From contig NZ_CP015105.1 in assembly GCF_002214545.1 (NCBI RefSeq), positions 434,001 through 498,000 of the forward strand: a stretch of 64,000 nt of DNA, given 5' to 3'. A model generated the notes under the pieces. That model saw nothing but the letters and a program-made list of their open reading frames with translations, did no database searches and was not told the origin of the DNA. Origin of the DNA: Thermococcus thioreducens. GTDB lineage: Archaea; Methanobacteriota_B; Thermococci; Thermococcales; Thermococcaceae. The translations under genes and the position numbers were made by a program. Below, one piece after another: positions 10,228-22,633 of this stretch; positions within the stretch are counted from its first letter, which is position 1; the number at the start of each line of letters is the position of its first letter.

Positions 10228-10551
10228 TCACGACCGGTAGATTTCCAGCTCCTCGCCTTCCTCACATGGGACTTCGTGCTCGAGCATGAGAGCAACTCTA
10301 TCGCCCGCAACGGCAAAGTCAACCCTCTGATGGTTCCTCTCTATCTTCATGATCGGGCTGACGGACTTTCCCTTTACCTTGTAGCCGGGGTAGATAAGAC
10401 CTTTTGTGACTTCCCCCACAAGAACCTGTCGATTGAGAACTTTTAGGATCTTTTCAACACGAAATTTCCCGACGGGTTCCCTGGAGACCACATCGACTTC
10501 ATGGTAATCTCTTCTCCCGAGAAGGCGTTTTAGAATGCTCACGTCCACCAC
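10228..10551 (-). CDS. Pbp11-like small protein resembling EF-Tu domain II
   Basis: About 107 residues forming a single beta-barrel like domain II of EF-Tu/EF-1A. Its hallmarks are VLVGEVTKGLIYPGYKVKG (the core and return strands) and VAGDRVALMLEHEV. It matches my recollection of Pbp11 of Pyrococcus, described as a tRNA-binding protein. It begins at GTG inside the 3' end of the upstream DUF257 gene (13-base overlap), so the two are co-translated. A role in tRNA or RNA binding follows from the family; the link with DUF257 proteins is contextual only. Confidence 0.7.
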   Translation of the reverse strand: MVDVSILKRLLGRRDYHEVDVVSREPVGKFRVEKILKVLNRQVLVGEVTKGLIYPGYKVKGKSVSPIMKIERNHQRVDFAVAGDRVALMLEHEVPCEEGEELEIYRS

Positions 10552-11237
10552 CGAAGTATCTCCCTTGGGGACACGATGATGTATCTCTTGTTGTTCAGGA
10601 GGGTGAATACTGACTTTACGAGCTTTATCCTTATTAGTTCTTCATCGTCTTCCAGCTCTATTACCGAAGTGGCCATATCTTCAAGCATTGGGAGGGGGTT
10701 GAAGTTGACACTTTCCAGGACAGAGGGTTCCACCAGGTATACGTTTATACTCCTTGGATCCCCGAGTTTTTGTCTTATGAGGCTTAAAAGAATGTACGTG
10801 CTGTGGACATCGTTTTGGAGTGTCAGAAATCTTTCCAAACCAAGAACCAGATGTATGTACCTGCCTTTAGACATTATTTCCTGCAGTTTCTTTTCGATTT
10901 TTCTCTGATATACGTTGGGGTCATTTTCGAACTTTATCTTGCCCAGGATATTTCCGTATTCTTGAATTCCACCCACCTTGATGACATTCACGTCGCTTTT
11001 GTCGATATAGACGCCCATTATTTCGAGGTGTTTCATATAAATTGGAAGGGTATCGAAGACATCCTCGATAATCAAGGGGATACCTTTTATTTTTGAGTAA
11101 TAAACAAAGGCGTGCAGTATAAACTCCCCTCCGAGAAATGCTCTGTTCTTGATTACTGTTAGTCCTCCTGGCCAGAGCTGATCTATCAGGGCGTTCAAAT
11201 CCTCTTTGGAACTTACTACGGATTTTATAGTCTCCAT
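10539..11237 (-). CDS. DUF257 family protein (paralogue 4 of 4)
   Basis: A 232-residue member of DUF257 (PF03192), a Thermococcales family of unknown function with a RecA/KaiC-like alternating strand-helix pattern but no canonical Walker A loop. Family features seen here are the acidic DVFDTLPIYMKHLEIMG block, the FHINW-like 'VIKVGGIQEYGNILGKI' strand pair and the late LPMLEDMATSVIELE segment. The ATG after GGTGAGTGTA is preferred over the GTG three codons earlier. It is six bases downstream of paralogue 3 and overlaps the Pbp11 gene. Confidence 0.85.
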   Translation of the reverse strand: METIKSVVSSKEDLNALIDQLWPGGLTVIKNRAFLGGEFILHAFVYYSKIKGIPLIIEDVFDTLPIYMKHLEIMGVYIDKSDVNVIKVGGIQEYGNILGKIKFENDPNVYQRKIEKKLQEIMSKGRYIHLVLGLERFLTLQNDVHSTYILLSLIRQKLGDPRSINVYLVEPSVLESVNFNPLPMLEDMATSVIELEDDEELIRIKLVKSVFTLLNNKRYIIVSPREILRWWT

Positions 11238-11242
11238 TACAC

Positions 11243-11902
11243 TCACCCCCCGACATTGATTCTGAGCTCTCTGCCGATCAGCTCAGGATTAATGCTTTTC
11301 AGAACCCTAACGCTTGCTCCTGTTGGATATGGCAGCATCTCCATTACCGTTGTCGCTATTCTCTCAAGTTCTGGTACTACGTTAAACGGGAGGCTTTGGA
11401 TGACGTTTTCATTAATAACGTAGAATGCCTTTCTTTCCTTTCTGCCCACGAACCGCTGGATCGCCAGGAAGATGCGATAGACATCCGTGGGGTTTCGTAT
11501 CACAAGGAAGATGTTCTCAACTCCAAGGACAAGGTTTATGATAGGGGGCCGCAGCTCGTTAAGGGTCTTTTTGCTTGCTTCTTCGTAGTTTTCAAGGTAG
11601 ACCCTCGGATCGGGATGAAAGGGTACTTTGGCCATCACGTTTCCAAGTTCATATTTCCCCCCGGTTTTCAGGACATACACGCTATCGAGGTCAAGGGGGA
11701 GATTCAGGGTTTTGGCATGAATCGCTAGGGTGTGGAGGGAATCGAAGTTGTCATCCACAAGTAGGGGAATCCCCTTTTCTTGAGAATAATCAATGAAGAA
11801 TCTTAGGACGAACTCTGGAATGTATGATGTGCGGTATTTTAACAGGACAGTCTCTCCGGGCAGAATTGAGTCTATAATTTCGGTGGCTTTCTCCCACTTC
11901 AT
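11243..11902 (-). CDS. DUF257 family protein (paralogue 3 of 4)
   Basis: A 219-residue DUF257 paralogue. The start is placed at the ATG after AAAGGTGGGACTT; a longer frame adds 16 unlikely residues. Shared positions with its neighbours include PGETVLLKYRTSYIPEFVL, VLKTGGKYELGNVMAKV, NLVLGVENIF and PELERIATTVMEM. A TATA-like CTTTATATTAATTC on the minus strand lies about 35 bases upstream, so this gene starts its own transcript with paralogue 4, pbp11 and tatD. Function unknown. Confidence 0.85.
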   Translation of the reverse strand: MKWEKATEIIDSILPGETVLLKYRTSYIPEFVLRFFIDYSQEKGIPLLVDDNFDSLHTLAIHAKTLNLPLDLDSVYVLKTGGKYELGNVMAKVPFHPDPRVYLENYEEASKKTLNELRPPIINLVLGVENIFLVIRNPTDVYRIFLAIQRFVGRKERKAFYVINENVIQSLPFNVVPELERIATTVMEMLPYPTGASVRVLKSINPELIGRELRINVGG

Positions 11903-12038
11903 AAGTCCCACCTTTTTAGGTTCTGAATGAATTAATATAAAGATTTGCAATGATGTTTAGTTAAAGGGGTGCTGAGTAACTCTCAGGAATTTAGAGTTGT
12001 GGTGTTGATGGCAACTTTTTTCGCGATGGTGTTTTAGG

Positions 12039-12713
12039 CTACCATCTAGCGATTTCCTCGGGGGTTCCTGGGAATTCTTTTCCTATTATATCTGGAAACA
12101 GGGCCTTCTTGGGGATGACAACGTGGGTTCCGTTTTTTATCTTTATCTCAACGACGGTGCTGGCGATTTCCTCAAGTTCCGGGAGCGGGTTGAACCTCAG
12201 CGTTGACAGCACGGGGCTGTTGACTATGTAGAAGGATTTCCTGTTGGGGTTCCCCAAGAATTCTTTGAGGTATGCTATGAACATGTAGAACTCCCTGCGT
12301 GTCTCAAGGAACGCAAACAGTCTCTCCATGCCCAGGACTATATGGATGTGTTTTCCGGATGAGAGTGTGGCGTTGGCAACTTTCCTGTGTCTTGTTATAT
12401 AAAATACCGGTTCGACATCGAGGTGTATCCTGTCGACTACCACTCCGAAAGTCTCCATGCCCCCGGTTTTAATCACCCTTACGTCGGAGAAATCCTCCTC
12501 AATGTCGAGTAACCTCAGGTGCTTCCTCACGAGTGCAAGGGAGTCCAACACGTCGTCAATGTAAACAGGCAGACCTCTCTCCCTGGCATACTTCACGAGG
12601 ACATAGGTGGCCAGCGCTGTTCCGTAGGGTGAGTCGTCCTCCATCAGTATTACGTCCCCGAAGGGGGCGGCCTCTATGAACTTAAACGTGGTCTCCTTTG
12701 CCACCGGCTGCAT
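12039..12713 (-). CDS. DUF257 family protein (paralogue 2 of 4)
   Basis: A 224-residue DUF257 paralogue with the family blocks GDVILMEDDSPYGTALATYVL, VIKTGGMETFGVVVDRI, HIVLGMERLFAF and PELEEIASTVVEI. The start ATG follows GGTGATAGTAA within the last 32 bases of paralogue 1, giving a long out-of-frame overlap and tight coupling. An untranslated gap of about 135 bases separates it from paralogue 3. Function unknown. Confidence 0.85.
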   Translation of the reverse strand: MQPVAKETTFKFIEAAPFGDVILMEDDSPYGTALATYVLVKYARERGLPVYIDDVLDSLALVRKHLRLLDIEEDFSDVRVIKTGGMETFGVVVDRIHLDVEPVFYITRHRKVANATLSSGKHIHIVLGMERLFAFLETRREFYMFIAYLKEFLGNPNRKSFYIVNSPVLSTLRFNPLPELEEIASTVVEIKIKNGTHVVIPKKALFPDIIGKEFPGTPEEIARW

Positions 12714-13374
12714 TTACTATCACCCCTATTGGAATCTCAAGCTCCCTCCCGATCAGCTCGAAAATGGGGCTTTTTTTGAAGATGATTCTGCCTGAAGCAG
12801 GGGTGGGAAATATTTCGACCACCGTGCTGGCTATGCGCTCCATCTCCGGCAGGGGGTTGAACTCCAGCCCCTCGGCGGTCTTTTTGTTCACGAGGTAGAA
12901 GGCCCGCCTTGGGTTTCCAAGGAACTTCTGTATCCGCGTCATGACGAGGTAGAACTCCCTGATTGTATGGACAAAGGCGAATATTTTTTCGAAGCCCAGG
13001 ACTATGTTTATGGATTCGCCCACGGATGAGACTATCTTTTTTCCCACATCTTCATACTTTTTGACGTAGATGTCTGGAGAGTCGCTGAAGTTTATCCTGG
13101 ATACTATATTGCCGACGTCAACATGCCCGTCGGATTTTATTACCAGAACATCGCTGAAGTCCTCATGAATCCCCCACAGGGCGAGGTGCTTCTGTATGAC
13201 GTGGAGCGCGTCAAAGTTGTCGTCTATCACAACGGGCACTCCCTTTTTCCGTGCGTACATCAGGAGAGTCAGCGTCGCGAACTCCGGAACGTATGATGGG
13301 TAGTACTCGACCAGGACGGTTTCCCCGGGCTTTACGGCGTCTATTGCCTTCAAAAGTTCATCGATGCTGTCCAT
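12682..13374 (-). CDS. DUF257 family protein (paralogue 1 of 4)
   Basis: A 230-residue DUF257 paralogue, the most upstream of the series. Blocks are PGETVLVEYYPSYVPEFATL, VIKSDGHVDVGNIVSRI, NIVLGFEKIFAFV and PEMERIASTVVEIFP. I start it at the ATG after GGGGGATGTGCA rather than 27 codons upstream. A TATA-like GGAATATATATC on the minus strand lies about 40 bases before the start, separating it from the hydrogenase operon that ends 115 bases upstream. Function unknown. Confidence 0.85.
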   Translation of the reverse strand: MDSIDELLKAIDAVKPGETVLVEYYPSYVPEFATLTLLMYARKKGVPVVIDDNFDALHVIQKHLALWGIHEDFSDVLVIKSDGHVDVGNIVSRINFSDSPDIYVKKYEDVGKKIVSSVGESINIVLGFEKIFAFVHTIREFYLVMTRIQKFLGNPRRAFYLVNKKTAEGLEFNPLPEMERIASTVVEIFPTPASGRIIFKKSPIFELIGRELEIPIGVIVNAAGGKGDHV

Positions 13375-13488
13375 TGCACATCCCCCGTATAACATGGTTA
13401 TTCCGGGTGATATATATTCCTTTTGTTTACATCTTTGGAAAATTTTCGAAGGCACCGGGGAAATACAGAGAAAAGTAAAAAGTGAAAC

Positions 13489-14736
13489 TTACAATTTGAC
13501 AAGATGCACCGAACACGAGATGCAAGGGTCGAATGCCCTCACCGTCTCCTCAAGGCGCCCTATCATCCTGCCCTCGTCGACTTCTCCGTAAAGTTCCCTG
13601 GCCTCTTTCAGGAGGCTGGCCTCTATCATCGCGTGGTTCAGCGCGGTTGGGGTTATGATGTTGGAGTAAGCGATATTGCCGCTATTGTCTATCCTGTAGT
13701 GGTGGATGAGCAGCCCCCGCGGGGCCTCGACGTAGCCGATTCCCTCCCCTTCCCTTGGCTCAACGGGGACGTTTTCCCCTTCGATGCCCCTATCGAGCAG
13801 GGTCTTTGCTATTTCGTTCGCCCTTTCTAGGGAATACACAAGCTCTATCGCCTGGGCCAGGTTGTTGTAGCTGACGTAGCCGGTTTCCAGTTTCTCCCTG
13901 TGCTCCTCAAAGAGCCTCCTGGCGGTGGGTGTGAGCATCTCCGACTTCAGGAGAAGCCTCGGTAGCGCTCCGACAAAGAACGCCTCGCCCTTGTAGCGGC
14001 TCTGCTTGGCGAAGCTGTAAACGAGGGAGCGCTCCTCTATCCTCTCGGTGTAGTGGAACTCCCCGGGCTCGTCGGATATCAGCTTTTCACCCCAGAGGTA
14101 GCCGTCGGTGGCGACGAAGTGTTTCGCTTTTGCCCCGTAGGGGTCTAACTGTGCGAAGAGCCTCACGGCACGTCTTGCCAGTCTTAGAAGGGCTTCGCTT
14201 TCCCTCTCTATTTCCTCCAGTTCTTCAACGGTCGGATACCTCCCAAATCCTCCCGGCTTGACGTTTATGCCGTGTATCTCCCTGCCGCCCACCACTACCC
14301 TGAGCCTGTTGCCAAAGGCTTTGAGCGCCAGTCCCTCCTTCACGAGTTCGCCGTGCTTCGTGGCCATCCTTATTGCGTCGGGGTAGCCGAAGACGTCAGG
14401 TGCAACGAGGAGGTATAGGTGGAGTGAGTGGCTCTCAAGGAACTCCCCTATCAGACCGAGCTCCCTGAGGAGCGTTATCTCCTCCGGGACTTCAACCCCA
14501 AAGGCCCTCTCGATTCCAATGACTGAGGCAACGCTGTGCGATAAATAGCAGATGGCGCATATCCTCGCTTCAAGGTCCGGAACGTCGTAGTAGTGTCTCC
14601 CCAGGGTGAGCAGTTCGAAGAATCTCGGCCCTTCGATGATCTGAAGCCTGACGTCCTTTACCTCGCCGTCCTCGATGACTATCTCGGCTTTGCCGTTGCC
14701 CTCAACACGCGTGAATTCCCGCATCTCAATTATCAT
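13489..14736 (-). CDS. hyhL: Sulfhydrogenase, [NiFe] catalytic large (alpha) subunit
   Basis: The 415-residue catalytic subunit of a cytosolic group 3b [NiFe] hydrogenase, which interconverts H2 and NADP(H) and can also reduce sulfur. The N-terminal nickel motif ARICAICYLSHS and the C-terminal DPCISCSVH are intact. Four residues follow the histidine (LVKL), matching the very short C-terminal peptide removed by a maturation protease in Pyrococcus sulfhydrogenase. The ATG (CCATGA) overlaps the hyhS stop. It is the last gene of hyhBGSL. Confidence 0.95.
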   Translation of the reverse strand: MIIEMREFTRVEGNGKAEIVIEDGEVKDVRLQIIEGPRFFELLTLGRHYYDVPDLEARICAICYLSHSVASVIGIERAFGVEVPEEITLLRELGLIGEFLESHSLHLYLLVAPDVFGYPDAIRMATKHGELVKEGLALKAFGNRLRVVVGGREIHGINVKPGGFGRYPTVEELEEIERESEALLRLARRAVRLFAQLDPYGAKAKHFVATDGYLWGEKLISDEPGEFHYTERIEERSLVYSFAKQSRYKGEAFFVGALPRLLLKSEMLTPTARRLFEEHREKLETGYVSYNNLAQAIELVYSLERANEIAKTLLDRGIEGENVPVEPREGEGIGYVEAPRGLLIHHYRIDNSGNIAYSNIITPTALNHAMIEASLLKEARELYGEVDEGRMIGRLEETVRAFDPCISCSVHLVKL

Positions 14737-15473
14737 GGCTCCCACCCCGCAAAGGTCTTGAACTTCCTTATGATGTACTCGTCATCGTAGCCGAGGCTCT
14801 TGAGTATCTCGTACTCGCTGGCCGGGTTCACCTCTCCGGGTAGCGGGCCTCTGCACCCTATGCACCCAAGGCCGGAGCGCACGCAGACGGCTTTGCAGCC
14901 GCCGTAGGTTATCGGGCCGAGGCAGGGAAGGCCTCTCTTCACCAGCACACACTCGTACTCGTTGAGCTTGCACTCAAGGCAGACCGGGTAGTCCTTTCTA
15001 ACGGGCTCGATGCCCTTGGCGATGTCCATGAGCACCTGGTAGACTTCCTCCTTGTCGTACGGGCATCCGGGGAGGGCGAAATCAACGGCGACGTATTCGA
15101 CGACCGGTTTGGAGTCGAGGGCGCGCATCGGGTCCCCACCGTCTCCGTAAACTGCCTTCAGCTTCTCTCTGATGGGTAGCTCAACGCTCCCCTGAACGGA
15201 GCCGTGGGTCGCACATGTCCCCAGGGCTATGAGGTACTCCGAGTGGTTCCTCGCCTCCTTGAGCAGGTTCAGGTCGCGCTGGGTCGAGACGGTTCCCGTT
15301 ACGAGTGCCACGTCGTAGTGGTTCCCCTCGCTCAGGCTGGTCGCCATGTGGAACTCGGTTATCTCGTAGAACTCGAGGAGGTCGAAGAGCTTCTCGTAGA
15401 GGAAGAGAATGTTTAGTGCACAGCCGCCGCAGTCTGTAAGCTCGAAAACCCCCAGCTTGAGCTTGTCCATCAT
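14733..15473 (-). CDS. hyhS: Sulfhydrogenase, small (delta) Fe-S subunit
   Basis: The 246-residue electron-transfer subunit next to the [NiFe] site. The proximal cluster begins at FELTDCGGCALN; ALGTCATHG and LPGCPYDKEE supply further ligands. A cysteine-rich C-terminal segment (CLECKLNEYECVLV, GLPCLGPITYGGCKAVC, GCIGCRGP) carries the medial and distal [4Fe-4S] clusters. It starts at ATGATG overlapping the hyhG stop and ends overlapping the hyhL start. It is soluble, with no Tat signal, as expected for a cytosolic enzyme. Confidence 0.94.
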   Translation of the reverse strand: MMDKLKLGVFELTDCGGCALNILFLYEKLFDLLEFYEITEFHMATSLSEGNHYDVALVTGTVSTQRDLNLLKEARNHSEYLIALGTCATHGSVQGSVELPIREKLKAVYGDGGDPMRALDSKPVVEYVAVDFALPGCPYDKEEVYQVLMDIAKGIEPVRKDYPVCLECKLNEYECVLVKRGLPCLGPITYGGCKAVCVRSGLGCIGCRGPLPGEVNPASEYEILKSLGYDDEYIIRKFKTFAGWEP

Positions 15474-16345
15474 ATCAACCCCCTCGTGGAGAGAGCATCC
15501 CAGTAGGTGAAGACCGGTCCGTCCTTGCAGACGTACTTGATGGACGTGCTCGTTCCGACGATGCAGTGGCCGCACTTGCCTATCCCACAGCGCATGCGCC
15601 TTTCGAGCGTCATGTAAATCCTGCCCGGTGAGAGTTTTCTGTCGAGGAGCTCCCTTATCACGAACTTGTACATGACCGGCGGGCCGCAGATGAGGGCATA
15701 GGTCTTCTCCACGTCGAACTCCTCTCCCCTGAATAGGTCTGTGACGACACCCCTGCACACCCTGTCGGAGAAGCCCCTCTCCAGATAGATGCACGATGGG
15801 CTTTCAACCTCGTAGGCAAGCTTGACGCTACAGTTCATGGCCTCGCCGTGCTTCAGGAGGTGTATTATCTCGTCGCGGAAGAGGATGTCCTCATAGGCCT
15901 TCGTGCCGTAGAGGAGCCAGATGTGTTCGTATTTGCCGGTGTCTATGGCGTACCAGAGCACGGATCTTAACGGCGCCATCCCGAGGCCGCCGGCGACGAG
16001 GATAAGGTTCGAGCCCTCCATCTCCTCCATGGGGAAGCCGTTTCCGTAGGGCCCGCGGATCCCTATTATGTCGCCCTCCTTCATCTTGTGTATGAACTTT
16101 GTCATTCTGCCGGCTTTTCTAATGCAGAGCTGGAGGTAGCCCTTTCTCGTTGGGGACGAGCATATGCTTATCGGGAACTCTCCGAAACCGCGTATGTCAA
16201 CGATGACGAACTGCCCGGGCCTGAACTCGAACTTCTCTCCAACTTCGGGGTCGAGGAAGCGTAGTGTGAAGAGCTTCTCCCTCGATGTCAGATCCTTCAC
16301 TTCGAGAATCCTTGCGTCGTACGTCTGGTACGGGTTCTCGCTCAT
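15470..16345 (-). CDS. hyhG: Sulfhydrogenase, flavin/NAD(P)-binding (gamma) subunit
   Basis: A 291-residue ferredoxin-NADP reductase-like subunit. The FAD-binding barrel holds RPGQFVIVDI and FPISICSS. The NAD(P) domain holds LVAGGLGMAPLRSVL and ICGPPVMYK. A C-terminal [2Fe-2S] site is formed by MRCGIGKCGHCIVG plus a later cysteine (YVCKDG). It transfers electrons between NAD(P)H and the Fe-S chain of HyhS. Four-base ATGA-type overlaps join it to hyhB and hyhS. Confidence 0.94.
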   Translation of the reverse strand: MSENPYQTYDARILEVKDLTSREKLFTLRFLDPEVGEKFEFRPGQFVIVDIRGFGEFPISICSSPTRKGYLQLCIRKAGRMTKFIHKMKEGDIIGIRGPYGNGFPMEEMEGSNLILVAGGLGMAPLRSVLWYAIDTGKYEHIWLLYGTKAYEDILFRDEIIHLLKHGEAMNCSVKLAYEVESPSCIYLERGFSDRVCRGVVTDLFRGEEFDVEKTYALICGPPVMYKFVIRELLDRKLSPGRIYMTLERRMRCGIGKCGHCIVGTSTSIKYVCKDGPVFTYWDALSTRGLI

Positions 16346-17352
16346 TTCAGAGACCCCCTAACCTCCTCAAGAACCTTAACGTGCTCTATCTTCGCCGGGC
16401 AGAACTCGTCGCATCTTCCACATCCGACGCAGTTGTAGCCCGCTGACGGGTCAAAGTAGCTCTTGCAGTAGTAGCGGTGCCTGAAGCGGTCCAAGCGAGT
16501 CGGCCTGAAGTTGTGGCCTCCGGCAACCAGCCCGTGGTTCTCCATGAAGCACGAGTCGTAGCGCCTCTCGCGGACTGCTTTGTAAGCGTCCATCCAGCGG
16601 TCGCAGACCTCGTAGCAGCGGCACGTCGGACAGACCATGTTGCAGTTGCCGCAGGCGAGGCATATCTCGGCGTACTTCTTCCACACCGGGCTGTTGTATG
16701 CCAGATCGAGCATATCGGCGAGGCCCTCCTGCGGGAGCTCCTTCTGGAACGCATTTGCGCGCCTCTCCTCGAACTCCTTGAAGTTGGCCAGGTCTTCGTC
16801 GGTCACCTCTTCGAACAGCTCACCGTTTTCCCAGGCCATCTCGTGGCCGCGGACGCTGCCTATTCTCACAAGCCATCCGTCGGGCAATTCGTGCAGGAAC
16901 AGGTCGAAGCCGTCCATGGCGAAGTGCGTGCCGAGGCTCTTGCAGAAGCAGTACTCGTCCGGCATACAGCTTATCCCTATTATCAGGGTCTTCTCGCGCC
17001 TGCTCTTGTAGTACGGGTCAGCGGGCTCATCGAGGTACACCCTGTCGAGTATCTTGAGGCCGTGGATATCACAGGAATGGAGTCCAAAGAGAACCATCGG
17101 CTCTGCTTCTACCTCATCTTCCCAGCGGCCGTTTTTCAGCCTGAGAATGGCCTCTTTGGGCCTGAAAAAGAACTTCTTTGGCGGGAGCATGGTTCTGTTG
17201 TAGTCGAGAGCCATCTCGCTGGGGTCATGAACCTCCTGGAAAGAATATATGCTCCCCTTCCTTACTGGAGCATAGACAGTGCCCCAGGCTTCGAGTGACT
17301 TGAAGAACTTCTCAAAGTTTTCGGAAGGCAATTTTATGTATCTCAAGGGCAT
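16342..17352 (-). CDS. hyhB: Sulfhydrogenase, ferredoxin-like (beta) subunit
   Basis: The first gene of the operon, 336 residues. The C-terminal region carries two [4Fe-4S] motifs, CLACGNCNMVCPTCRC near residue 232 and CVGCGRCDEFCP near 306. The N-terminal two thirds is the conserved, non-ferredoxin part with LFGLHSCDIHGLKILDR and SCMPDEYCFC. The ATG at 17352 and the adjacent GTG are both possible starts after GAGGCGG. Its promoter is in the 161 bases shared with the divergent Nuo-like operon, which contain SurR-like sites. Confidence 0.92.
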   Translation of the reverse strand: MPLRYIKLPSENFEKFFKSLEAWGTVYAPVRKGSIYSFQEVHDPSEMALDYNRTMLPPKKFFFRPKEAILRLKNGRWEDEVEAEPMVLFGLHSCDIHGLKILDRVYLDEPADPYYKSRREKTLIIGISCMPDEYCFCKSLGTHFAMDGFDLFLHELPDGWLVRIGSVRGHEMAWENGELFEEVTDEDLANFKEFEERRANAFQKELPQEGLADMLDLAYNSPVWKKYAEICLACGNCNMVCPTCRCYEVCDRWMDAYKAVRERRYDSCFMENHGLVAGGHNFRPTRLDRFRHRYYCKSYFDPSAGYNCVGCGRCDEFCPAKIEHVKVLEEVRGSLK

Positions 17353-17420
17353 CACCGCCTCTAACGGGCTTACGATTTTAAGTTTGTAAAGGATTGATTT
17401 AAGAATTTTTCAAACAAACG

Positions 17421-17443
17421 GTTACCAACCAAATGTTACTAAC
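17421..17443. promoter_or_regulatory. Double SurR-type operator (two GTTn3AAC sites)
   Basis: GTTACCAAC at 17421-17429 and GTTACTAAC at 17435-17443 are separated by CAAAT. Each matches GTTn3AAC, the binding sequence known for SurR of Pyrococcus furiosus. The arrangement also matches the extended form GTTn3AACn5GTT. SurR is known to activate hydrogenase operons and to lose DNA binding when oxidised by sulfur. Its position midway between hyhB and the NuoE-like gene lets it control both. The surR gene itself is not in the window. Confidence 0.88.
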
Positions 17444-17457
17444 TTGTACTTTAGTGC

Positions 17458-17472
17458 ACGCTTATAAACATC
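17458..17472 (+). promoter_or_regulatory. TATA box of the Nuo-like operon
   Basis: CGCTTATAAACATC provides a strong archaeal TATA box 15 bases downstream of the SurR-like pair and about 45 bases before the NuoE-like ATG, giving an expected transcription start near 17490. Confidence 0.7.
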
Positions 17473-17513
17473 AAAGTCGAAGTTTTTCCGAAAAACCCTT
17501 GCGGTGATGCAAA

Positions 17514-17978
17514 ATGGAATCCTCCCTTGGTTATATCCGCTCTTATCCGCCGGAACCGAGCTCGCTGATTCCCCTTCTCCAGCGAACTCAGGAAAAGTTC
17601 GGCTACCTCCCCAGGGAGGCCCTTGAGGAGATAGCGAACTACGTCGGTGTCCCGCTCAGCAGGGTCTACGGCGTCGCTACCTTCTACGCCCAGTTCAGGT
17701 TTGAACCCCTCGGAAAATACGTCGTCAAAATCTGCCACGGGACGGCATGTCACGTGAACGGTGCCGTCAATATATCCCAGGCCATAACGGAGGAGCTTGG
17801 AATCCAAGAGGGGCAGACGACAGAGGACGGCCTCGTGACGCTGGAGCGCGTCGCCTGTCTCGGATGCTGCAGTTTGGCCCCGGTCATAATGATAAACGAC
17901 AAGGTCTTCGGAAAGCTGAATCCTGACAAGGTCAGGAAGCTGATGAGAAAGCTAAGGGAGGGGAAGCTCGATGTCTGA
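17514..17978 (+). CDS. NuoE-like [2Fe-2S] subunit
   Basis: A 154-residue thioredoxin-like ferredoxin of the NuoE/HoxE/HydC family. The N-terminal helical part (IPLLQRTQEKFGYLPREALEEI) is typical. The [2Fe-2S] ligands are in ICHGTACHVNGA and VACLGCCSLAPVIMIN. It passes electrons between the flavin subunit and partner Fe-S proteins. It overlaps the NuoF-like gene by eight bases and heads a three-gene operon divergent from hyhBGSL. Confidence 0.93.
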   Translation: MESSLGYIRSYPPEPSSLIPLLQRTQEKFGYLPREALEEIANYVGVPLSRVYGVATFYAQFRFEPLGKYVVKICHGTACHVNGAVNISQAITEELGIQEGQTTEDGLVTLERVACLGCCSLAPVIMINDKVFGKLNPDKVRKLMRKLREGKLDV

Positions 17979-19773
17979 AATCAAGGCCATCGCAGTCGGC
18001 ATGAACTCCTGTGGAATAGCTGCCGGCGCGAGGGAAACCTACGAGGCCATAAAGGCCGAGATTGAGAGAAGAAACCTCGACGTGAAGCTCAAGATAGTCG
18101 GCTGTGTCGGCATGTGCTACCGCGAGCCACTGGTTGACATAATCACCGATGATGAGATAATCACCTACGGTCACGTCGACCCCAAGAAGGTCCCCCGGAT
18201 TATAGAGGAGCATGTTATCAACGGAAAGCCGGTCGAGGAATGGATAGTCAAGCGCGACTGGTGGGAGGACGGCGAGAGAAAGACGTGGGACGTTGACGGC
18301 TACTTCGCAAAACAGAGGAAGATAGTGCTCGAAAACTCCGGCTACATAGACCCCGAGAACATCGACGAGTACATCGCCGTTGGAGGCTACGAAGCCCTCA
18401 AAAAGGCCCTCAAAATGGAGCCCGAGGAGATAATAGACGTCATCATGAAGTCCGGTCTGAGGGGGAGGGGCGGTGCGGGCTTCCCGACCGGCCTGAAGTG
18501 GAAGTTCGCCAGGGAGGCCAAGGGGGACGTGAAGTATATAGTCTGCAACGCCGACGAGGGCGACCCCGGGGCATTCATGGACAGGAACGTGCTCGAAGGC
18601 GACCCGCACCGAGTTATTGAAGGCATGATAATCGGTGCCTACGCGATTGGGGCAACCAAAGGGTTCATCTACGTTAGAGCAGAATACCCGCTCGCCATAA
18701 GGAGGCTGAGGATAGCGCTGAAGCAGGCTAAGGAGAGGGGCTTCCTGGGCGAGAACATCCTCGGCTCGGGCTTTTCCTTCGACATCGTCATCAAGGAAGG
18801 CGCCGGAGCGTTCGTCTGCGGTGAGGAAACCGCTTTGATAGCATCGATAGAGGGCAGGCGCGGAATGCCGAGACCGAGGCCGCCTTATCCGGCCCAGAAG
18901 GGCCTCTGGGGCAAGCCGACGAACATCAACAACGTGGAAACGTGGGCGAACGTGCCGTGGATAATCAAGCACGGCTGGGAAGCCTACGCCTCGATAGGAA
19001 CCGAGAAGAGCAAGGGGACGAAGGTCTTCGCCCTCTCGGGCAAGATAAAGCACGGCGGAAACGTCGAGGTTCCGATGGGAATGACGCTGAGGGAGATACT
19101 CTACGAGATAGGCGGGGGAACCAAGACCGGCAAGAGGATAAAAGCCGTCCAGCTCGGTGGTCCCTCGGGCGGCTGTATTCCCGAGTACCTCTTCGACACC
19201 CCCGTTGACTACGAGAGCGTGAACGCTACTGGAGCGATAATGGGGAGCGGCGGAATGGTCGTCATGGACGAGGACACCTGTATGGTCGATGTGGCAAAGT
19301 TCTTCCTCGACTTTACCGTGAAGGAATCCTGCGGAAAGTGCACCTTCTGCCGTCTGGGCACTAAAAGGATGTGGGAGATTCTGGACAGGTTCACCAAAGG
19401 CGAGGCAACGGAGGAGGACCTCGAAAAGCTTGAGCGTTTGGCTTATCAGGTCAAGGCCGGCTCTCTCTGCGGCCTCGGACAGACGGCACCTAACCCGGTT
19501 CTGACGACGCTCCGCTACTTCAGGGACGAATACCTTGCCCACATCGAAGGGAAATGCCCCGCCAAGGTCTGCAAGCCGCTCATCAGGTACGTCATAATAA
19601 CCGAGAAGTGCACGGGCTGTACAGCGTGTGCGATCTTCTGTCCCGTCAAGGCCATCAGCGGCGAGAGGCTCAAGCCCCACATCATTGACCAGTCTGCCTG
19701 CATCAAGTGCGGAACCTGCTACGAGGTGTGCCGGTTCAACGCCATAGAGATAGTCGATGCGGGGGGTGAGTGA
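17971..19773 (+). CDS. NuoF-like FMN/NAD(P)H-binding subunit with extra ferredoxin domains
   Basis: A 600-residue flavoprotein of the NuoF/HydB type. In order: an N-terminal thioredoxin-like [2Fe-2S] domain (SCGIAAGARETYEAI, VGCVGMCYREPLV), the FMN/NAD core (GLRGRGGAGFPTGLKW near residue 166, NADEGDPGAFMDR near 191), the [4Fe-4S] site SCGKCTFCRLGT, and a C-terminal 2x[4Fe-4S] ferredoxin (CTGCTACAIFCP, CIKCGTCYEVCRF). This layout is that of multimeric NAD(P)H-linked hydrogenases and formate dehydrogenases rather than of respiratory complex I. Confidence 0.94.
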   Translation: MSEIKAIAVGMNSCGIAAGARETYEAIKAEIERRNLDVKLKIVGCVGMCYREPLVDIITDDEIITYGHVDPKKVPRIIEEHVINGKPVEEWIVKRDWWEDGERKTWDVDGYFAKQRKIVLENSGYIDPENIDEYIAVGGYEALKKALKMEPEEIIDVIMKSGLRGRGGAGFPTGLKWKFAREAKGDVKYIVCNADEGDPGAFMDRNVLEGDPHRVIEGMIIGAYAIGATKGFIYVRAEYPLAIRRLRIALKQAKERGFLGENILGSGFSFDIVIKEGAGAFVCGEETALIASIEGRRGMPRPRPPYPAQKGLWGKPTNINNVETWANVPWIIKHGWEAYASIGTEKSKGTKVFALSGKIKHGGNVEVPMGMTLREILYEIGGGTKTGKRIKAVQLGGPSGGCIPEYLFDTPVDYESVNATGAIMGSGGMVVMDEDTCMVDVAKFFLDFTVKESCGKCTFCRLGTKRMWEILDRFTKGEATEEDLEKLERLAYQVKAGSLCGLGQTAPNPVLTTLRYFRDEYLAHIEGKCPAKVCKPLIRYVIITEKCTGCTACAIFCPVKAISGERLKPHIIDQSACIKCGTCYEVCRFNAIEIVDAGGE

Positions 19774-19774
19774 A

Positions 19775-22633
19775 ATGGTTAAGATCATAGTCAACGGGAA
19801 GGAAATCGATGCTCCGGAAGGAAAGCCGCTCATAGACTTTCTCCGTGAAATCGGGGAGCACGTTCCCGGCTTCTGCTACACGAGCGAGCTCGACCCCTAC
19901 GGCTCCTGCAGGCTCTGTCTCGTCTCCACCAGGAGGGGGGTCACCACCTCGTGCACCCTCAGGCCGATGGAGGGGCTTGAGTTAGAAACGCTGAGCGACG
20001 AAGTCGTTTCGATGAGGAAAACGGCGCTTGAGCTAATCCTCTCTGACCACTACGGCGACTGTATCGGCCCCTGTCAGGACGGCTGTCCGGCGCACAGCGA
20101 CGTTCAGGGCTACCTCGCACTCATAGCGATGGGCAGGTACCACGAGGCGGTCAAGCTGATGAAGGAGAAGTACATCCTGCCGGCTGTGCTCGGAAGGGTC
20201 TGCCCGGCCTTCTGTGAAGAGAGATGTCGGAGAAACCTCGTGGAGGAGCCCCTCGCGATAAGGCAGCTCAAGAGATACGCAGCAGATTACGACCTTGAGC
20301 ACGGCCCGTGGATGCCGGAGATTCCACCATCAACCGGAAAGAGAATAGCCGTCGTCGGCGGTGGGCCGGCAGGATTGGCGTGCGCATACTACCTCAGGAC
20401 GATGGGTCACGAGGTCACGATAATCGAGGCGATGCCTCACTTAGGAGGAATGATGCGCTACGGAATCCCGCCCTACAGGCTGCCGAGGGACGTTCTGGAC
20501 AAGGACATAGCGACGGTCATAAACACGGGAATAGAGGTGAAGACCAACACCGCTCTCGGAAGGGACGTGACCCTCGACGAGCTCCGCGAGAAATACGATG
20601 CCGTCTTCCTCGGCGTCGGCGCGTGGAGAAGCAGAAAGATGGGGATTCCTGGCGAGGAGCTTGAGGGAGTGATGCACGGCATAGAGTTCCTCAGGAAGGT
20701 CAACACCGGCGAAAAGGTCAAGCTAGGCGAGCGCGTCATAGTCGTCGGCGGCGGAAACACCGCGATGGACGTTGCAAGGACTGCCTTAAGGCTTGGAGCC
20801 AAGGTTACCGTCGTTTACCGCCGCTCGAAGGCTGAGATGCCCGCCAACGAGAGGGAAGTTGAAGAGGCAATCGAGGAAGGCGTCGAGTTCCTCTTCCTCA
20901 CGAACCCGGTGAAGATTCTTGGAAAAGATAAGGTCGAGGAGGTAGAGCTGGTCAGGATGCGCCTCGGCGAGCCGGATTCAAGCGGAAGGAGGAGGCCGAT
21001 ACCGATAGAGGGCTCGAACTTCAAAGTTAAAGCGGACAACGTGATTTTGGCGATAGGCCAGTACTGCGACGAGGAGTTCTTAAAGGCCCTCGGCATCGAG
21101 GCGAAGCGCGGAAAGGCGGTCGTTGATGAGGTGACGCTCCAGACGAGCGTTCCAGGTGTATTCGCTGGCGGCGACCTCGTCCTCGGGCCATCAACGGTCA
21201 TCGAGAGCATAGCCACCGGAAGAAGGGCCGCGATAATGATAGACCTGTACCTCAAGGGCAAGCTGGAGAAGGCTAAAGCCGTTCTCACCGAGCCCGAGAA
21301 GCACATCGAGGAAGTTTTAAGCGATGATGACCTTTACAAGGTTCTCTTCGACCTCAGGCCCTACAACCACTGGAAGAAAGTAACGGAGAAGGACTACGAG
21401 GGCGTTGAAAGAAAGCCGAGGGCGAGGGTTAGGCTCCTCGACCCGGAAAAGAGGAAGAGAACCTTTGAGGAGGTCGAGCCGGCCCTAACCGAGGAGCAGG
21501 TTCTTGAGGAAGCGAGGCGCTGTATGAGCTGCGGCTGTATGGAGGTCTTCCGCTGCAAGCTGAGGGAGTACGCAACGCTCTACAACGCTCAACAGCACGC
21601 CTTTGAGGGAGAGCAAAACAAGTTCGAGCTCGACGAGGGCCACCCCTTCGTTACCCTCGACAACAACAAGTGCGTCCTCTGCGGCCAGTGCGTCAACTTC
21701 ACCCACGAGATAGCCGGAGAGGGAGTCCTCGACTCCCTCTTCCGGGGTTTTAAGACTAGAATCTCACCGCCGCTCGGGGAGAGCCTCGGAGACATGGAGG
21801 GCCGGTTTATAGGCGAGATGATAGACCTCTGTCCCGTTGGGGCGATAACCGAGAAGCTTCCGTTCGTCAAGCCCGGGCCCTGGAAGACGAAGCCCATCAA
21901 AACCGTCTGCAACGGCTGTTCCTTTGCCTGCGAGATGGCTATTGAGGTCTACGACGGCATGCTCGTGAGGGCTTCCCGCGTCGAGGGCTCGTGGAACAAG
22001 CATATCTGTGACGTCTGTCGCTTTAACAGGCCCTGGGCCGAGGATTTAACCGGGCCGCTCCTCAACGGAAAGCCGGTGAGCTGGGAAGAAGCCAAGAAGT
22101 TCCTCACCGAGAGGAGCTACGCCCTGATTTTGACGCCGGAGCTCACCAACGAGGAGATAGCGTTCTTCAAGGAGTTCGCGGCTAAAAACGGCATCCCGAT
22201 AGGCTCGACCGTGAGCGGAAGCCCATCAATCGCCACACTGGAGGACATCAAGAAGGCAAAGCGCGTTCTCCTGAAGGCCGACGTTGAGAAGTTCCCGCTC
22301 CTCAAGATACTATTGAAGGGGAAGGAGCTCGTCGAGGAGGACTACGACGTTGTGATACTTGAGGGGTCAGCTGAACCGCTGGAGGTGCCGACGTTAATCC
22401 TCCACGAAGGCGTCAATGCCGCTGGTCTTATCAAGGCGGGAATAACTGGAATCCCGGAGAGCGAGGCCTATGTCGTCGTTGGCCGGCCGGCAAAAGAACT
22501 GCCCGGGGACGTCCTCGTGATTCCGGCTGGGGTGTGGGCAGAGAAGAGCGGAACGGTAACGAACGCCTTCGGGATGGAGCTGAAAATGGAGAAGGTGGGG
22601 GAAGGCTACTCGCCGGTGGAGCTTTTCTCGTGA
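19775..22633 (+). CDS. NuoG-GltD fusion: Fe-S / FAD NAD(P)H oxidoreductase
   Basis: A 952-residue fusion. The order is: N-terminal [2Fe-2S] domain (PGFCYTSELDPYGSCRLCLV), a GltD-type cysteine region (DCIGPCQDGCPAHSD, GRVCPAFCEERCRR), FAD site VVGGGPAGLACAYYL, NADPH site VVGGGNTAMDVA, a second FAD-closing motif (GVFAGGDLVLG), NuoG-like clusters (CMSCGCMEVFRC, CVLCGQCVNF), then the Fe4S4 start of a molybdopterin domain (VCNGCSFACEMAIEV). The molybdopterin domain is truncated to about 200 eroded residues, so no formate site remains. The start ATG follows GGGGGTGAGTGAA. A role in NAD(P)H/ferredoxin electron exchange is inferred. Confidence 0.9.
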   Translation: MVKIIVNGKEIDAPEGKPLIDFLREIGEHVPGFCYTSELDPYGSCRLCLVSTRRGVTTSCTLRPMEGLELETLSDEVVSMRKTALELILSDHYGDCIGPCQDGCPAHSDVQGYLALIAMGRYHEAVKLMKEKYILPAVLGRVCPAFCEERCRRNLVEEPLAIRQLKRYAADYDLEHGPWMPEIPPSTGKRIAVVGGGPAGLACAYYLRTMGHEVTIIEAMPHLGGMMRYGIPPYRLPRDVLDKDIATVINTGIEVKTNTALGRDVTLDELREKYDAVFLGVGAWRSRKMGIPGEELEGVMHGIEFLRKVNTGEKVKLGERVIVVGGGNTAMDVARTALRLGAKVTVVYRRSKAEMPANEREVEEAIEEGVEFLFLTNPVKILGKDKVEEVELVRMRLGEPDSSGRRRPIPIEGSNFKVKADNVILAIGQYCDEEFLKALGIEAKRGKAVVDEVTLQTSVPGVFAGGDLVLGPSTVIESIATGRRAAIMIDLYLKGKLEKAKAVLTEPEKHIEEVLSDDDLYKVLFDLRPYNHWKKVTEKDYEGVERKPRARVRLLDPEKRKRTFEEVEPALTEEQVLEEARRCMSCGCMEVFRCKLREYATLYNAQQHAFEGEQNKFELDEGHPFVTLDNNKCVLCGQCVNFTHEIAGEGVLDSLFRGFKTRISPPLGESLGDMEGRFIGEMIDLCPVGAITEKLPFVKPGPWKTKPIKTVCNGCSFACEMAIEVYDGMLVRASRVEGSWNKHICDVCRFNRPWAEDLTGPLLNGKPVSWEEAKKFLTERSYALILTPELTNEEIAFFKEFAAKNGIPIGSTVSGSPSIATLEDIKKAKRVLLKADVEKFPLLKILLKGKELVEEDYDVVILEGSAEPLEVPTLILHEGVNAAGLIKAGITGIPESEAYVVVGRPAKELPGDVLVIPAGVWAEKSGTVTNAFGMELKMEKVGEGYSPVELFS

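Follow-up and report, generated by a model that had tools for sequence, protein, structure and literature searches.

A predicted SurR operator shared by the divergent SHII and Nfn-BfuABC operons of Thermococcus thioreducens

Within a 64,000-nucleotide stretch of the T. thioreducens chromosome (the window), an array of SurR-type half-sites lies between two divergent operons, one encoding sulfhydrogenase II (SHII) and the other the transhydrogenase Nfn-BfuABC (Nfn-Bfu). We consider it probable that this array, at 17413-17451, is a SurR operator shared by the two divergent promoters and co-activating both in the absence of sulfur. Such control would bring the archaeal Nfn-Bfu under the SurR sulfur switch and pair it with SHII. 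The physiological role of Nfn-Bfu would thereby be directly testable with existing T. kodakarensis genetics.

The SHII and Nfn-BfuABC operons

The first-pass annotation had described a hydrogenase operon on the left (hyhBGSL) and NuoE/NuoF/NuoG-GltD genes on the right, and profile searches agree with this description:

13489-14739, minus strand: ShyA, alpha (large, NiFe) subunit of SHII (NF040828, 793.4 bits)
14733-15488, minus strand: ShyD, delta (small) subunit of SHII (NF040831, 484.8 bits)
15470-16345, minus strand: ShyC, gamma subunit of SHII (NF040830, 635.1 bits)
16342-17346, minus strand: ShyB, beta subunit of NAD(P)-dependent hydrogenase/sulfhydrogenase II (NF040829 equivalog, 698.9 bits, cut-off 690)
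17514-17978, plus strand: BfuC (NuoE-like) of Nfn-Bfu (PF01257; 81% identical to the T. sibiricus orthologue)
17971-19773, plus strand: BfuB (NuoF-like; Complex1_51K, SLBB, NADH_4Fe-4S, Fer4; 89% identical to T. sibiricus)
19757-22633, plus strand: BfuA (NuoG-like, fused to a GltD/NfnL-like NADPH-FAD domain; Fer2_4, Fer4_20, Pyr_redox_2, Fer4_Nqo3; 79% identical to T. sibiricus)

The left operon is SHII, with all four ShyABCD equivalogs exceeding the curated NCBIfam cut-offs. The longest shyB open reading frame begins with a GTG at 17355, and a TTG at 17346-17344 offers an alternative start, the more likely of the two given that residue 4 is where the NCBIfam equivalog profile begins. The domains of the right operon are those by which PMC9304861 defines Nfn-BfuABC, namely BfuB with FMN, SLBB, NuoF 4Fe-4S and Fer4 domains, a NuoE-like BfuC, and BfuA with 2Fe-2S, 4Fe-4S and an NfnL-like FAD domain. 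According to the same paper, the expressed T. sibiricus enzyme couples NADPH-dependent ferredoxin reduction to NAD+ reduction. Given these domains, the 79-89% identity of the orthologous T. sibiricus subunits and the enzymology of that enzyme, the right operon is, as judged from its predicted products, a soluble electron-bifurcating NADPH/NADH/ferredoxin transhydrogenase and not a fragment of respiratory complex I. The earlier term 'Nuo-like operon' was right as to gene types and is refined here to a known enzyme type. The T. sibiricus operon also occupies the same divergent position beside SHII; unlike the T. thioreducens array, its central half-site is GTG. The available text of PMC9304861 covers the T. 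sibiricus enzymology and does not discuss the promoter or a shared operator.

Beside the SHII operon, on the minus strand at 10539-13455, are four similar tandem open reading frames, of which the one examined is a DUF257 protein (PF03192). Similar frames occur near Nfn-Bfu in genome G018.

A half-site array between two predicted promoters

The gap between shyB and the NuoE-like gene is about 160 bp and contains the following elements:

17393-17402, minus strand: probable TATA box of the SHII operon, TTCTTAAATC (assigned from sequence and conservation)
17413-17443, no strand: SurR-type operator of five alternating half-sites, AAC-n5-GTT-n3-AAC-n5-GTT-n3-AAC (from sequence and promoter footprint)
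17449-17451, no strand: imperfect sixth half-site CTT, one letter off GTT (from sequence and zero changes in columns 64-66)
17461-17469, plus strand: probable TATA box of the Nfn-Bfu operon, CTTATAAAC (assigned from sequence and conservation)

Two GTTn3AAC sites five bases apart had been reported here, and reading of the sequence bears them out as GTTACCAAC at 17421-17429 and GTTACTAAC at 17435-17443, with CAAAT between. The first reading had missed an AAC at 17413-17415, n5 ahead of the first GTT, and the CTT, n5 beyond the last AAC and invariant in the promoters compared. The letters of 17413-17443 are AAC-AAACG-GTT-ACC-AAC-CAAAT-GTT-ACT-AAC, followed by TTGTA-CTT up to 17451. With the flanking AAC and CTT, the array consists of six alternating half-sites, the last imperfect, over a span of 31-39 bases, and therefore holds three overlapping extended GTTn3AACn5GTT motifs (17429-17413 on the minus strand, 17421-17437 on the plus strand and 17443-17427 on the minus strand). 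Owing to the CTT, GTTACTAACTTGTACTT counts as an extended site close to the promoter on the right. The claim of one double operator is correct in that the extended motif is present, but the sequence holds a pair of neighbouring core sites, each lying close to one of the two promoters.

The window contains a single match to the double pattern GTTn3AACn5GTTn3AAC, versus 0.01 expected from shuffles. Genome-wide, the extended motif has 42 matches versus 9 for a reversed control pattern, and the five-half-site array has a single match in the T. thioreducens genome, at the operator, and its control has none in that genome. Chance origin of the motif was rejected on the shuffle expectation, the reversed control, the footprint described below and this uniqueness.

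The array lies upstream of both predicted TATA boxes, about 10 nt separating box and nearest half-site each way. On the SHII side the distance is 10 nt, with an A-rich, BRE-like GAAAAA alongside. This TATA box is conserved in relatives having SHII and lost in G018, G050, G058 and G024, which we take to be T. kodakarensis. On the Nfn-Bfu side the TATA box stands about 9-10 nt from the CTT, is preceded by a conserved TGCA and has a TTATAA invariant in the promoters compared. Half-site-to-TATA spacings of 9-13 nt were read for surR, hypF, SHI and one antiporter-led promoter of the same genome. Downstream of either predicted TATA box, no GTTn3AAC was found in the shyB-bfuC intergenic region. The stretch from the array to the Nfn-Bfu TATA box (17444-17460, TTGTACTTTAGTGCAC) is itself conserved, its TGCA nearly invariant, and is unlike the usual purine-rich BRE; it is possibly a weak BRE needing an activator, or the site of another factor.

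A second candidate for the SHII TATA box, CTTAAAAT on the minus strand at 17384-17377, was set aside since the resulting start would exclude the ribosome-binding site. The inverted pair at 17349-17358 and 17501-17510 (GCATCACCGC/GCGGTGATGC) was rejected as an operator, being merely two ribosome-binding sites mirrored. Scans for bacterial sigma-70 promoters and terminators were uninformative for an archaeon.

One clear SurR orthologue is encoded in the genome (NF047699, 404.7 bits against a cut-off of 250); its CxxC is CTEC at positions 24-27, and it matches the PF0095 crystal structures (E 1.8e-92). The extended motif is found upstream of surR/pdo, hypF, hypA, SHI and a CoA-disulfide-reductase/Nsr-like gene, as well as two further NfnS genes and two Mrp-type antiporter-led operons, which are probably mbh and mbs. 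As predicted from these motif positions, the gene set matches expectation for the known SurR regulon. Each of the two further NfnS genes (G000:C1:1701173 and 1795215) is preceded by the extended motif at a distance of 75-83 bp, suggesting that SurR controls at least three Nfn-type enzymes here. A second, weak SurR-like protein is encoded at G000:C1:1659420-1659857 (43.5 bits against the cut-off of 250).

Conservation, sharing and predicted direction of control

Among 94 Thermococcaceae genomes surveyed, NuoE matches were found in 45; the match in G003 is only a distant paralogue and was excluded, leaving 45 Nfn-Bfu promoters from 44 genomes. All five half-sites are intact in 36 of the 45 promoters, the remaining nine sharing a GTT to GTG change in the central half-site, and the right GTTn3AAC core is present in every one. 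When changes were counted over 43 promoters on the protein tree, the 15 half-site columns had one change in total, whereas the 16 spacer columns had a mean of 8.2, versus 8.1 for third codon positions of the adjacent gene. The CTT columns (64-66) had none. The promoters had been anchored by a pattern containing the right core; all of them passed that pattern, so the change count is unbiased by the anchoring. On these counts, the spacers appear nearly neutral and the half-sites under strong constraint.

Nfn-Bfu is present without intact SHII in five genomes (G018, G024, G027, G050 and G058). SHII remnants are decayed in G018 and G027, none is adjacent to Nfn-Bfu in G024, G050 and G058, and the SHII TATA region is gone in four of the five. 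All five half-sites are nevertheless kept in each, indicating that the Nfn-Bfu promoter needs the array too. Conversely, genomes carrying NfnI (NfnAB type I, the highest-scoring class, at least 400 bits, of the NfnS family search) retain, the T. litoralis group apart, no more than three or four half-sites, located on the SHII side (fewer in P. yayanosii), and SHII therefore needs the left part. A strict assignment of one core per promoter is not fully supported, as Nfn-Bfu-only genomes retain the left core as well. In G018 (L189:6135-6402), shyB fragments in several frames lie beside an intact Nfn-Bfu operon and a full SurR array.

These comparisons bear on who uses the array and what binds it. 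It might serve SHII alone, with the adjoining Nfn-Bfu constitutive or under another factor acting at the conserved TGTACTTTAGTGCAC. SHII does have SurR sites in Pyrococcus and T. barophilus, which lack Nfn-Bfu, and the TGCA region beside the Bfu TATA box is conserved as well. We regard this as unlikely, however, since the whole array is retained in the five genomes without intact SHII and the right core, universal among Nfn-Bfu promoters, is absent in NfnI genomes except for relatives from the T. litoralis group, in which it resembles a relic. Motif alone cannot prove the identity of the binder, and the weak SurR-like protein is a conceivable candidate for another regulator with a similar recognition sequence. 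That another such regulator binds in place of SurR is nonetheless very improbable, as the motif is the exact published SurR consensus, marks the known SurR regulon in this genome, and SHII is reported as a SurR target in relatives. The proposal of a SurR-type operator common to both operons is thus supported at the level of sequence comparison, with half-sites near-invariant while spacers drift, an array that outlives SHII loss and a SurR with CxxC in the genome.

We propose that, without elemental sulfur, reduced SurR (its CxxC as free thiols) would occupy the array, probably as a pair of adjoining dimers, immediately upstream of the BRE/TATA of each operon, and would aid recruitment of basal transcription factors both ways. 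SHII (H2/NAD(P)H) and Nfn-Bfu (NADPH/NADH/ferredoxin) would then be co-produced as a single module for redox balancing. Once sulfur is present, SurR would be oxidised and leave the DNA, and both operons would fall. Here SurR chemistry, the motif, the position rule and Nfn-Bfu activity are carried over by analogy from the literature on relatives, and binding at the array, the two dimers and activation, not repression, of the Nfn-Bfu side are what we infer. The rule holds that upstream sites activate and downstream sites repress (PMC12162507). With the array upstream of both TATA boxes at similar distance, co-activation without sulfur is predicted, and near-invariance of the half-sites in about 44 genomes likewise suggests that SurR probably switches both gene sets on without sulfur.

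The sign of the Nfn-Bfu response is the weakest step because NfnI expression in relatives is inconsistent. In the proteome of T. onnurineus, NfnS (TON_0056) declines when sulfur is present, while detection of NfnL (TON_0057) is confined to cells with sulfur (PMC4463584); the authors of the T. piezophilus study place Nfn under negative SurR control (PMC8595942). SHII itself had no sulfur response in Palaeococcus pacificus (PMC6981617). A further counterpoint is that the Nfn-Bfu promoter has CTT in place of GTT as its closest half-site. Our literature search found no expression data for Nfn-Bfu of any Thermococcus, nor binding data, and nothing relevant on expression of TK1611-TK1614. SurR can both activate and repress (PMC12162507), and at surR/pdo, where divergent genes likewise share two SurR sites (PMC12162507, and the same in T. 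thioreducens), the promoters are reported to respond oppositely, in contrast to the co-activation predicted at SHII/Nfn-Bfu. SurR might accordingly bind here with SHII activated and Nfn-Bfu repressed without sulfur, as the T. onnurineus NfnL and the T. piezophilus classification would have it. Such opposite responses seem improbable to us, as no motif overlaps or follows the Bfu TATA box and the array is upstream of that box by a distance like those of activated promoters.

Exchange of the enzyme opposite SHII

That SHII and Nfn are under SurR is already published, and a table of PMC8595942 implies that SHII and NfnI share a site: at the divergent T. piezophilus locus, a long SurR motif lies 69 bp from SHII and 72 bp from NfnI (Table 2). 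This locus and the equivalent Pyrococcus arrangement resemble ours in that SHII faces an Nfn that produces NADPH and a long SurR motif is present. They differ in the partner of SHII, here Nfn-BfuABC, whose mechanism of bifurcation is not that of NfnAB, and in that the array has five or six half-sites here as opposed to three or four there. SHII of T. barophilus (59,761 in PMC12162507 versus 59,755 in G086) similarly has one long SurR motif, 67 bp upstream, but as a single extended site and with NfnI as the partner. In the openly accessible literature searched, we found no description of a SurR array at Nfn-Bfu, of the form of this array or of an in-place exchange.

NfnI is found in 23 genomes and is divergent from SHII in all of them, 135-245 bp apart. 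The slot opposite SHII is taken by NfnAB (type I) in these 23 and by Nfn-Bfu in 40, such that 63 of the 64 genomes with SHII have one or the other, the exception being a contig edge. No genome among the 94 was found to have both. PMC9304861 describes NfnAB and Nfn-Bfu as mutually exclusive; this holds for NfnI only, because T. thioreducens, for one, bears Nfn-Bfu and two other NfnS genes. On a ShyB tree of about 130 residues, the partner of SHII changes some 8-9 times, an approximate count.

T. litoralis (Nfn-Bfu) and G080 (NfnI) share about 90% identity across shyB and the operator; it stops just short of the Bfu TATA box and resumes with the start codon of the gene that follows the enzyme genes, which themselves have been exchanged. 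Since the flanks are alike and the enzyme genes different, this was a replacement in place, whose breakpoint in the T. litoralis group lies after the operator and ahead of the TATA box. We find it moderately likely that the position opposite SHII is a conserved SurR-controlled socket, in which NfnAB and Nfn-BfuABC have been swapped in place several times while the operator was kept. If true, what is inherited as a unit would be the regulation, and the enzyme would be the part open to exchange. The locus offers a clear example from nature of an enzyme replaced while its operator stays constant, and so bears on the mutual exclusion of NfnAB type I and Nfn-Bfu in Thermococcaceae.

In the alignment of G080 with T. 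litoralis (L187:1-310 versus L188), the exchange falls between the same operator and the same nitroreductase-like gene, and a relic of the Bfu promoter remains in G080. In G093 (L190), an NfnI genome of another genus, a near-intact promoter of the Nfn-Bfu type, tatatactttatagcacGTTtataagc, lies between SHII and NfnI, suggesting that Nfn-Bfu was present there earlier.
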